From Myxococcota bacterium (GTDB lineage: Bacteria; Myxococcota_A; Polyangia; JAAYKL01), in contig JASJCT010000005.1 of assembly GCA_030065855.1 (NCBI GenBank), positions 62,001 through 126,000 of the forward strand: DNA of 64,000 nucleotides, written 5' to 3'. Below the pieces are notes generated by a model. It had not been told where the DNA came from. It ran no database searches and saw only the letters and a program-made list of their open reading frames with translations. Every line of letters starts with the position of its first letter. Position 1 is the stretch's first letter. This document shows positions 14,630-22,056 of this stretch, in pieces. The translations under genes were made by a program, and so were the position numbers.

Positions 14630-16159
14630 TTATTGCACGTCTGGCATGCGGCGCCTCTGTCTGGGCGGTAATACCATGGGTCGATGGGGAGTGCCATTGG
14701 ACCGAGGCTTTATTGTATAAGCCCCAATATCCTGGGGCAGGGATTTGCGGCCGAGCCGCTCAAAATCTCCCTTTATGAGATCAGCAGCAGTTTCCCCCTG
14801 CAGGCCTTTTATTTCAGAAAGGTACTTGAAAAGAAGACCTGCCAAGCGGGGCAATGCAATGCGGCTGGTTTGGTTAGTCGCTCGAAACAGCCAATCGGAA
14901 AAGCCCATGAACGACCAAAACGCCGAGCCGTCCTGCCATATGGCAGGCGCTGAGGAGATAAAATTGCCGCTATTGTAAATGAGGTCGAAATAGCGAGCAA
15001 ACCGCTTGAGCCGTTGCATCTCGGCAAAGCTGATCTCTGAATTTTGAAGAATCTCATATGGAGGGGACTCGCTGTAGCGCATTTGCCACGGTACGTCGTG
15101 CCGGGCAATGGGTGCGCCCCTGAGGCGTTTGAGTATGCCCACCTGGATTTCATGGGGATGTATTATGGCTATCAGCCTGTCAAAGCCGTCTGCAAATGAT
15201 GCCATGGTTTCGCCGGGCAGACCTGCGACCAAGTCCGTGTGCAAGTGGGCAGATGTCTCGTTCCGCAGCCGGCTGAGCGTTCGGATAACAGTGTCGACAG
15301 GATAGTTGCGACCGATGCGGTGGGCCACGTCTGGGTTCAATGTTTGAACGCCCACTTCCAGCTGCAGCACCCCGGGTTGGAAGTCCTTTAGCAGGGCGAG
15401 GTGTTGCTCTGGAAGGGGGCCCGGGACGAGCTCGAAGTGGACAAACAACCCAGAGGCCTGTCGTTCGAGAAAGAAGCGCAAGAGCGCGGGCGTGACCCCC
15501 AACTGAAGGGTGCGATCGATGAACTTGAAGCGCCGCGCGCCCCGTTGCCACAGGTCATCTAGGGCTGCTAAAATTTGGTCCTCTGGAAACCGCCGCACCT
15601 TGGCATCCCTGCTGGACAGGCAAAACTCACACCTGTTCGGGCATCCGCGGGAGGCTGCTGCGTAGATCACCCGGTGGGCAATGTCTGCATCGGTGTAAAG
15701 GCTGTACGGCAGTCTCACGGCATCGAGGTCCGGGACAGGGGCGTGGATTATTTTCTTTGCGGGGGGCCTGCCAGCAAGAAAATTCTTACACAATTGGGCA
15801 AAGGCAAGATCACCCTCACCCGCGATGATATAATCTGCGGTCGCGGTAATTTCGGGAAAATCCTCTGGATAGCTCACCTCTGGGCCGCCCAAGACAATAC
15901 AAACGTCCGAGCGTACCTGCTTGATGGTGTGAACCACCTGACCCAAAAGTCCGACATTCCACAGATAAACGCTCAGGCCCACAATGACCGGCTGATGATC
16001 GAGTATCTTTTCGGCAATATCAGCGGGTCTATCCTCCAGGGTGAACTCGAGGATGGTCGCGCGCTGTTCCAGATCATCGAGATTTGCCTTTAAAAAGCGA
16101 AGCGCGAGGGAAGTGTGGGCAAACCGGGCGTTGGCAGTGGCGAGAACGATGGGCGTCAT
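14630..16159 (-). CDS. B12-binding-domain radical SAM protein (DUF4080-type)
   Basis: A 509-residue cytoplasmic enzyme. The N-terminal ~130 residues form a cobalamin-binding-like Rossmann domain (IVLATANARFAHTSLALRFL; GLSVYLWNVG; LGGPEVSYPED). The radical SAM cluster motif is C173-x3-C177-x2-C180 (CPNRCEFC), followed by a TIM-barrel core with QLEVGVQTLNP. The C-terminal part fits DUF4080. The reaction is unknown; relatives include B12-dependent methyltransferases. Its ATG overlaps the TatD stop codon by 4 bp (ATGA), so translation is coupled. Confidence 0.82.
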   Translation of the reverse strand: MTPIVLATANARFAHTSLALRFLKANLDDLEQRATILEFTLEDRPADIAEKILDHQPVIVGLSVYLWNVGLLGQVVHTIKQVRSDVCIVLGGPEVSYPEDFPEITATADYIIAGEGDLAFAQLCKNFLAGRPPAKKIIHAPVPDLDAVRLPYSLYTDADIAHRVIYAAASRGCPNRCEFCLSSRDAKVRRFPEDQILAALDDLWQRGARRFKFIDRTLQLGVTPALLRFFLERQASGLFVHFELVPGPLPEQHLALLKDFQPGVLQLEVGVQTLNPDVAHRIGRNYPVDTVIRTLSRLRNETSAHLHTDLVAGLPGETMASFADGFDRLIAIIHPHEIQVGILKRLRGAPIARHDVPWQMRYSESPPYEILQNSEISFAEMQRLKRFARYFDLIYNSGNFISSAPAIWQDGSAFWSFMGFSDWLFRATNQTSRIALPRLAGLLFKYLSEIKGLQGETAADLIKGDFERLGRKSLPQDIGAYTIKPRSNGTPHRPMVLPPRQRRRMPDVQ

Positions 16160-17650: not shown

Positions 17651-17827
17651 AATTGGTGCCCATCCAGAAATGGCCCTCTTGACGAAAACCCATCCCCCCG
17701 GCCCTCTTCCCTGCGAGGGAAGAGGGAGGCAAAACCACCATGAATCATTGGATTACCTAATTCCGGTTCGCCCTTTCCGCATCGGATAGGGGGCTAGGGG
17801 GAGAGGTTTCCGGAGCGGGCACTAATT
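17651..17827. mobile_element. Possible 177-bp MITE
   Basis: AATTGGTGCCC at 17651-17661 is inverted, with one mismatch, as GGGCACTAATT at 17817-17827. The interior is made of hairpins such as CCCTCTTCCCTGCGAGGGAAGAGGG. No coding signal. It fills the gap between the SRPBCC gene and the Hcp-like gene. Confidence 0.45.
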
Positions 17828-17969
17828 AGGAGAACATGGCCGGCTACTTCAGTACGCACCGTGGTTTGTCGCTGATTCACCGAGATGATGCGCAACAGGT
17901 GTGGTCCAAAATTTGCTTAGATATTTATGAGCGAAGAGATGTGACGACAAAGTACGGAGAAAAAAGAGA

Positions 17970-18692
17970 ATGGGAGAAATGGTTCGAATGGAACAAACAG
18001 CACTGCAACACCGGGCCAACGAAGACATCACCCAGCCACTGGGTGTGTATATGCGATCCGATATCAAGGCACTCCAAGAGCTTTTGCTCTACGTCCTCAA
18101 GGGCATCTCAATGTATGCCCATCTCACCCGGCAAATGGCAGTTACAGACCGCCAAATCGATGAATTTTTGGCCCGGGCACTGCACTTTGCCACCGAGGAC
18201 AGGGAGGACTTAAACGTGGAATCCCTGTGCGATCTCCTCCGACAAGCCAGCGGGCTTCGAGACCGTGCGCGGACGTTATACGAATGGACGTGCGGGCCAA
18301 TGTTGAAGCAACCCCAACAGCTTGCGGGCCCTGCTGCTTGGCAACACAGCGGCACCAACGACGCGTTGATCTCCTATGGCAGACGCATTGCCCCACAGCA
18401 AAACCGCCGAGAAAAAGGAGATTTGTTCTGGCGTCTCGAGCAGTTATGCATTTTGGGAGTACAGCATGCTGCCAAGCAGCTGCGCCAGCTTCACGTCCAA
18501 GGGAAAACCGATGAAAAGAAATGCGATTTGGTGCACGAAGTTCTGTCTACTTTGGCTTCCGACCCGGATGTCGATGCACTAAACGCGTTGGTACTGCGCC
18601 TCAGCTACAGCGATGATGTCGAGGCGCTAGATGCAACATCTTCTTACCAAATGGCCCTGTATCCCCCTGAAGAGCATATCGTCTCTAGTTAA
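17970..18692 (+). CDS. Cysteine-less relative of the hybrid-cluster protein (Hcp) N-terminal helical region
   Basis: A 240-residue soluble protein. MVRMEQTA at the N-terminus aligns with Hcp's MFCVQCEQT, and ALQELLLYVLKGISMYAHL with the first helical bundle. A second bundle (~150-225) matches Hcp's second three-helix segment. The cysteines that bind the N-terminal Fe-S cluster in Hcp are replaced: the first two positions read Met, and the later pair is not Cys. The Rossmann domains that hold the hybrid cluster are absent. GGAGAAAAAAGAG precedes the ATG; the upstream frame is open to 17931 but has no other start. Probably not a reductase; a structural or regulatory role is a guess. Confidence 0.6.
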   Translation: MGEMVRMEQTALQHRANEDITQPLGVYMRSDIKALQELLLYVLKGISMYAHLTRQMAVTDRQIDEFLARALHFATEDREDLNVESLCDLLRQASGLRDRARTLYEWTCGPMLKQPQQLAGPAAWQHSGTNDALISYGRRIAPQQNRREKGDLFWRLEQLCILGVQHAAKQLRQLHVQGKTDEKKCDLVHEVLSTLASDPDVDALNALVLRLSYSDDVEALDATSSYQMALYPPEEHIVSS

Positions 18693-19507: not shown

Positions 19508-19765
19508 ATGAAGGTCCGTGCTGTTGCCATTATCTCACTGGTTATTTTGATTTATGCCTGCACCGACGACGCGTCTGACCCACAGTCATGTGACCCTGTG
19601 GATGATTTCGACGAGAGCGATGTCATATGCTGCGAGACCTATGGCATCGGCTCTGGTGGGGAGCCCTGCTGTCACGAATACGAGAGGGTTGTAGCTACGG
19701 AGTGCCCGAATTCACAAACCCCAGGCGGTGGAAAGCGGGTCGTAGAAGATAGTTGCTGTGATTAA
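19508..19765 (+). CDS. Small Cys-rich lipoprotein
   Basis: An 85-residue exported protein with a lipobox (LIYAC, Cys18). The mature part is acidic with nine further cysteines, several adjacent (CC pairs near residues 42, 54 and 83), implying disulfides or metal binding. AAGAGGAGATTTACAA precedes the ATG. Its 18-bp distance from the barrel gene suggests an operon. No family recognised. Confidence 0.6.
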   Translation: MKVRAVAIISLVILIYACTDDASDPQSCDPVDDFDESDVICCETYGIGSGGEPCCHEYERVVATECPNSQTPGGGKRVVEDSCCD

Positions 19766-19920: not shown

Positions 19921-19950
19921 CGCCGAGTTCGGCACACAATGGAGGCAGCT

Positions 19951-22056
19951 ATGAACCCATCATCCCTTATTAAGACCCTTTTAAAAACATCTGCGCTCAC
20001 AATTCGGGCAGTTCTTTTCAGCACGGGGTTGTTTTGCTCGACCAGTGTCATGACTGCCTGTGAAGCGCCGCAGAGTGACGTCACGTTCGAGCAGCTGGGT
20101 CTCACCCAAGACTTTCCCACAAAGCCGCGATCCTGCGACAGCGATGCAGACTGTCCCCCAGACCAGGTCTGCCAGCTCTCGACCCAGGAATGCCGGCCTG
20201 CTTCTTTTTACGGCGCTACGCCGGAATGGGGCATGTCTCTGGCATCAGGGGAGCCAGATTTTCCAGAAATCGACCAGGTTGACGAAGATGAAGAAGGGGA
20301 GGAGGAGGGCAATGGCGTGCCCAGCCCACGGGACACGCCCCCCCACGTGCCCCCAGTCATCGAAGAAGCCGGCGAGGTCTGCATTGATGAACACACCCAG
20401 GTCGTGCTGTACATGTCTGCGGATGACAGTAACTCCAAGGCCTCTCCTGTCATCGCCCGCAAGCTGATCAATAAGGGATATGCGGTGCTCGATAAACTGA
20501 TCAGAACCTATGAATTTTTAAATTACTACCCCGTGGTGTATGCCCCGGCTGACCTGGGAAACATCGAAATCATTCCCCAGATGGTGGCGAATAAGACCAT
20601 GCCAGGTACGTATATTTTGCAAATCGGCGTCCAAGGTCCCCATGTTAAAAACGCGGAACGCCGCCCCCTCAACCTGACCTTTACCCTTGATCTGTCCGGT
20701 TCGATGAGCGGTGAGCCCATGGAGAACCTGGTTGCAGTGCTCCGCGCCATTGCCCAAAACTTCAAAGAAGGAGATGTGGTCTCCATGGTCTCCTGGGACA
20801 CGGAGCAAAACGTCTTGCTCAACTCCCATCGCGTGGCCGGACCCAATGACCAAATGTTCTTAAACGCGGTCGATAACCTCGAACCTGGCGGCGGTACGAA
20901 CCTCCACGCTGGGTTGAGAAAGGGGTATGAGCTGGCCTATAAAAACTACAGCCAGGAACATCTGAATCGGGTCGTGATGATAAGCGATGGCCAGGCCAAT
21001 GTGGGTGTAACAGATGTGGATTTTATTGCAGATGCGGCAGAGGATAGTGAAGATGAGGGTATTTACCTGGTCGGCGTGGGCACTGGCAATGGGTACGACG
21101 ACACCATGATGGATGCCATTACTGATGCGGGCAAGGGCGCCTACCTGTTCATCGATGCCCCTGACGAGGCCCGCAAGCAATTTTCTGGGGACCTCTTTGT
21201 AGCAAACTTGGATATCGCGGCCATGGACGTCCGAATGCGACTCAAGCTGCCATCTACCTTCCGCGTGATTGAATTCCACGGAGAACAGATGGACGGAGAT
21301 CCAGCTGAGGTAACGCCGCAACACCTGGCCCCGAACACGGCAATGGTCTACCACCAAGCCATCGGGTCCTGTTCTCGAGAGCCGTTCGGAGATGATGACG
21401 TCGTCGAAATTCAAGTCGAATTTACCGATCCTTTCTCACGGGAGCAGAAATACAAGGAGATGCAGGCCACTGGTTATGAGCTACTCGGGGATGGTGAAGA
21501 CGGATCAGCTCGGACCCAATTGGCCAAGGGCAATGCTGTGGTAACCTATGCTGAGGCGCTCAAAAAACTCTACCGCGCTGATCAAGGAGAAGCCGCATCG
21601 ATCTGTGATCTGTCCCAGACCATTATCGGTCAGGCAGCGTTGATCCTGCCCCAAGATGGAGATCTGAGCGAGGTCAGCGAGCTGCTGGACGTTTACTGCG
21701 ATCGATGCGTGATGGAGGACTGCGGCATTGATCCATGGGGTTCAGGGCAGAGCGATGTGGACGCGGATTCAGACGGGGACGCGGATTCAGACGGGGACGC
21801 GGATTCAGACGGGGACGCGGATTCAGACGGGGACGCGGATTCAGACGGGGACGCGGATTCGGACGGAGACGCAGATTCAGACGGAGATGGAGATGGGGAA
21901 AATGGCGACGCTGACAATGACGACGCAGCTGATGCTGACAGTGATGGAACGTCTATGGAGAATGACGCCAATGGTTGCGGGTGCAGCGCGCCGGGGCGCC
22001 ACCTCTTGAAAAGCTCGGTGCTCGTTCGATTATTAGCGCGTATTGCGCTCCCCTAA
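19951..22056 (+). CDS. Von Willebrand factor A domain lipoprotein with Asp/Ser repeat and Cys-containing C-terminal tail
   Basis: A 701-residue surface protein. The signal ends in lipobox VMTAC (Cys37). [15 protein letters not shown] knot-like motif lies near 62-80, followed by an acidic spacer. The VWA domain spans ~240-420 with [14 protein letters not shown] at 247. The last ~90 residues contain seven DADSDGD repeats and then CGCSAPG plus a hydrophobic/basic end ([11 protein letters not shown]). That tail resembles the MYXO-CTERM sorting signal of myxobacteria. VWA domains bind metal and proteins, so a surface adhesion role is inferred. ATG 19951 is preferred because GGAGG lies 5 nt upstream. 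It overlaps the convergent gene by 4 bp. Confidence 0.8.
21763..21888 (+). repeat. Seven tandem 18-bp coding repeats (Asp/Ser linker)
   Basis: The unit GCGGATTCAGACGGGGAC occurs five times without change, followed by two slightly diverged copies. It encodes DADSDGD-type repeats within the VWA lipoprotein. Acidic repeats of this kind can bind calcium or serve as an extended stalk. The near-identity of copies predicts copy-number variation between strains. Confidence 0.9.

Follow-up and report, generated by a model that had tools for sequence, protein, structure and literature searches.

Can a piece of a metal-cluster enzyme be kept by evolution after its cluster ligands have gone? The question is raised by a gene on a 64,000-nucleotide stretch of DNA (the window), which belongs to a 7.08 Mb draft genome of the Myxococcota in 228 contigs. 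Hybrid cluster protein (Hcp) and CO dehydrogenases have been studied as metal-cluster enzymes. The first-pass annotation of the window had seen in this gene the first domain of Hcp, devoid of the Fe-S cysteines and of the redox domains, and had suggested a new use of the fold.

The gene and its homology to Hcp

17956 to 17959, plus strand: GGAG, putative ribosome-binding site 10 nt 5' of the ATG (from sequence)
17970 to 18692, plus strand: stand-alone Hcp domain-1-like gene (P0001), identified from the open reading frame, Pfam, NCBIfam and PDB matches, and a model with Z 21.6 to Hcp

The reading frame is open from its ATG over 240 aa and, as first annotated, has a candidate ribosome site. Its product is a homologue of Hcp domain 1. 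The Pfam Prismane profile (PF03063) matches the window protein with 34 bits and E 1.8e-8, above its gathering score of 27 bits. The NCBIfam models for Hcp and hydroxylamine reductase match at 1e-12 and 5e-10, below their full-length cut-offs because the first third alone is present. When the single sequence is compared with PDB Hcp chains by phmmer, the best match is to 1e2u at 2.3e-11. The proposed correspondence of the N-terminus and two helical bundles to the first domain of Hcp is thereby confirmed, and the refuting outcome that had been envisaged, a profile search finding no relation to Hcp, did not materialize, since profile and structure searches both find Hcp. The C-terminus, residue 240, lies close to the domain 1 boundary, and domains 2 and 3 with the hybrid-cluster ligands are absent, in agreement with the reported lack of redox domains. 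Automatic annotation would name such a gene hydroxylamine reductase or prismane, which would mislead.

Lost and retained segments

17979 to 18050, plus strand: N-terminal segment, residues 4-27, aligned to the Hcp [4Fe-4S] motif CxxC...C...C; MVRMEQT kept, four Cys replaced (alignment; model confidence low)
18054 to 18341, plus strand: first three-helix bundle, residues 29-124, retaining KGISMYAH, R-x-RA..LYEW.C and GPA (22 of 29 conserved positions kept; pLDDT mostly >90)
18198 to 18215, plus strand: loop in place of the near-invariant Hcp TNVNFD, residues 77-82 (0 of 6 conserved positions kept)
18285 to 18293, plus strand: W106 and C108, both invariant in the stand-alone copies; W106 absent from full-length relatives (alignment)
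18420 to 18608, plus strand: second (inner) helical bundle, residues 151-213; KGxAAYxxHA of Hcp lost (10 of 23 conserved positions kept; model)
18447 to 18449, plus strand: C160, a Cys unique to the stand-alone copies (0 of 115 full-length relatives)

The four columns that hold the [4Fe-4S] ligands are 100% Cys in 115 full-length domain-1 sequences, and none of them is Cys in any of the three stand-alone copies (described below). The window protein has MVRMEQT versus MFCYQCEQT in Hcp, and GVY in place of GVC. All four Fe-S cysteines are thus gone, as had been claimed; the further statement that the first two read Met is right once one alignment gap is moved.

Retention was counted at positions at least 80% conserved in class-I-like relatives, a position being scored as kept when no more than one of the three copies had lost it. 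The cluster segment keeps 2 of 17 such positions, the two parts of the first bundle 16 of 22 and 6 of 7, the TNVNF loop 0 of 6, the second bundle 10 of 23 and the region after it 0 of 9. It was concluded from this pattern that the first bundle survives and that the cluster-holding features do not. Outer helices are restricted to monomeric Hcp, and in class III Hcp the inner helices are found at the dimer interface (PMC10502027). By this comparison the best-kept part of the stand-alone would correspond to the outer bundle, and the lost inner-bundle motif would be one that faces domains 2 and 3 in Hcp.

Predicted structure

An AlphaFold model of the window protein has a mean pLDDT of 86.5, with values >90 across most of the helical part; its input alignment joined the window protein to 57 domain-1 sequences from full-length relatives, sister copies being left out. 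The two-bundle helical fold of Hcp domain 1 is present in the model, which VIA-align superimposes on D. vulgaris Hcp with Z 21.6 and rmsd 2.6 across 188 residues. Because Hcp relatives fed the alignment, the fold match depends on the sequence match; the homology to Hcp is secure regardless of the model, since single-sequence phmmer suffices. In a Foldseek search of the PDB the significant matches were to Hcp structures only. Weak matches to ferritins and acyl-CoA oxidases were set aside as common helical arrangements.

In sequence and fold, then, the stand-alone resembles domain 1 of class I Hcp (PF03063; D. vulgaris 1e1d/1e2u), and it carries the KGISMYAH and GPA motifs of the class-I-like relatives. 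Unlike class I Hcp, it lacks the [4Fe-4S] ligands, the TNVNF loop, domains 2 and 3 and the hybrid cluster, is 240 aa long rather than ~550 aa, and has four unique shared residues. A reduced N-terminal part is found also in class III Hcp (M. marburgensis, 7e0l), of which ~98 helical-bundle residues align (Z 12.7), but class III keeps both clusters and is without the outer bundle (PMC10502027), the part that would be best kept in the stand-alones.

Relatives and distribution

The search for other stand-alone members without Fe-S cysteines, which the first-pass annotation had proposed, yielded two: a 259 aa copy on another contig (C32) of the same genome, and a copy of 242 aa, counted from its Met, in G002, which belongs to the same family but to a different genus. 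PF03063 gives 21.2 bits, below the cut-off of 27, with one of these sister copies and no match with the other. A profile built from the three stand-alones scores its members at 400-418 bits, values that are high by construction, and all full-length Hcp at 132 bits or less. Applied to 318 genomes from the class and 379 from the phylum, two overlapping samples, this profile of three copies found no further stand-alone, and on viral contigs it found no relative. A scan of 84,980 species yielded 68 relatives, again without a further stand-alone; it required exact peptide matches, so that diverged members would escape, and a few short frames in it are interrupted by frameshifts or contig ends. Plasmids gave 18 weak matches at 23-46% identity, and the annotated ones are ordinary hcp.

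The two genomes with stand-alones are drafts, ~96% and ~90% complete and probably metagenome-derived. The window genome has a single full-length hcp (555 aa), on contig C74 and not on the window contig, and so the relatives did not prove to be truncated pseudogenes beside hcp genes, the other outcome that would have told against the first reading. A second, divergent Hcp type (MFCFQCQEAAKNEGC) occurs in most genomes of the family, including L001 (G000:C74, in the window genome) and L029 (G002:C12); in a quick tree it forms a clade well apart from the class-I-like type, which G005, G007 and G009 carry. The window genome and G002 have stand-alones plus only this other Hcp type, and those three genomes lack a stand-alone, a sample too small for an argument.

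Single origin and selection

The three stand-alones are 33-34% identical in pairs and form one clade, with support of 100/99 in a careful tree of 31 sequences and 99 in a quick tree of 118, both of which carry a long-branch warning. Four residues, A57, W106, C160 and L174, are shared by all three copies and occur in none of the 115 full-length relatives; four such columns were reached in 0 of 2000 shuffles. With the long-branch caveat, the sequence comparisons show that the copies share a single origin.

Codon positions 1, 2 and 3 are 47-48%, 55-59% and 31-34% identical among the stand-alones, and four-fold sites, at 29-32%, are saturated. Conservation of positions 1 and 2 in the face of a saturated position 3 indicates purifying selection. 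In a neutral simulation run to about the same protein identity each lineage acquired 5 stops, and intact pairs were obtained in 0 of 300 cases. The codon pattern and the simulation thus identify the stand-alones as maintained proteins and, together with the three intact copies, speak for maintenance by selection after loss of the catalytic residues, as in pseudoenzymes, whose enzyme fold is maintained after such loss (reviewed in PMC5106787, PMC10211241). The earlier judgement that the gene is not a pseudogene is upheld by these three copies, which are diverged yet intact and evolve under purifying selection, and they lend support to the suggestion that the Hcp fold may have found a new use without Hcp clusters.

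Neighbourhood and regulation

The gene is flanked in the window by genes for an SRPBCC-like protein, TatD and a beta-barrel-like protein; the C32 copy neighbours an alcohol dehydrogenase and an MMPL exporter, and the G002 copy glutamine synthetase and PGA_cap. No neighbour gene is shared across the three loci; one weak match, pairing a frame internal to the radical SAM gene with an alternative frame of the G002 gene, was judged spurious. No consistent FNR, HcpR, DNR or NsrR-like site was found 5' of four genes, nor a motif shared with hcp or a link to an NO regulon, and no sigma-70 promoter or terminator was found.

Other features of the surrounding DNA were recorded. A G+C-rich palindromic intergenic stretch (ccctcttccctgcgagggaagaggg, window 17690-17735), of a type often repeated between genes, lies 5' of the gene. 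The radical SAM gene (14630-16159), which adjoins tatD, encodes a B12-binding protein with a DUF4080 domain. Directly after the beta-barrel-like gene, 19508-19765 encodes a small Cys-rich protein of 85 aa, possibly lipoprotein-like and without a Pfam match, and the product of 19939-22056, predicted to be a von Willebrand factor A protein, carries a long tandem repeat (13 protein letters) near its C-terminus.

What the protein may do

That two relatives exist elsewhere means that the piece has been kept by evolution, and probably that it has a new, non-enzymatic role. The favoured reading, with a probability of roughly 0.55, is that the window gene encodes a small, lineage-restricted pseudo-Hcp that acts as a metal-free helical binding module. 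A class-I-like hcp would have been duplicated, whereupon one copy would have been trimmed to domain 1 with its two helical bundles and stripped of its [4Fe-4S] ligands and of the residues facing the catalytic domains. This pseudo-Hcp would then have been kept in one bacterial family, with two copies in the window genome, most likely as a soluble, non-catalytic, all-helical module whose conserved first bundle binds a protein partner. We infer both the absence of metal and the action by protein binding. Counting against a binding module, neither the neighbours nor regulatory motifs shared with hcp nor promoter-like sites point to a partner, and three known copies in two genomes give little power for mapping surface conservation.

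The metal-free part of this proposal is challenged by C108 and C160, whose conservation in all three copies makes the proteins free of Fe-S ligands, not of cysteine as had been envisaged. Together with a nearby His these residues could form a new thiol, metal or haem site, the protein still being a redox protein or sensor though the Hcp clusters are gone. C160 is peculiar to the stand-alones; C108, however, is common (56%) in ordinary Hcp of this type, and no invariant His accompanies either cysteine among the three. A site of this kind appears unlikely. Less probable again is a regulator or decoy that mimics domain 1 and binds the co-resident intact Hcp or an Hcp partner. A full-length hcp is indeed present in both genomes with stand-alones, and the fold is that of domain 1, but the stand-alones are closer to the class-I-like Hcp type than to the Hcp of their own genomes, their inner-bundle motifs are degraded, and shared regulation with hcp was not seen.

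Decay of hcp into remnants without function would fit the missing cluster ligands and catalytic domains, the very long branches and the narrow distribution. It is strongly disfavoured by three intact reading frames at ~33% identity with positions 1 and 2 conserved against a saturated position 3, a divergence at which neutral drift would leave ~5 stops per gene. Hardly to be credited is a split Hcp of which the stand-alone would be one subunit, with domains 2 and 3 encoded elsewhere: the protein does end close to the domain 1 boundary, but all four cluster ligands are lost, and a domain 2-3 query found only complete Hcp (555 aa and 552 aa) in the two draft genomes. To the extent that the drafts cover the genomes, a separate domain 2-3 gene is lacking and the protein is therefore not part of a split Hcp.

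Implications

It may be, at slightly less than even odds, that a new family with a function of its own has arisen from Hcp domain 1, for example a regulator or a thiol sensor built on W106, C108 and C160, without Hcp-type Fe-S chemistry; this would be the first maintained pseudo-Hcp. No pseudo-Hcp was found in open-licence papers, and an earlier description elsewhere is possible. A stand-alone domain 1 that is under selection without its ligands means that the helical part of Hcp can be useful alone, and the stand-alone offers a natural control for roles of domain 1 beyond holding the cubane cluster.
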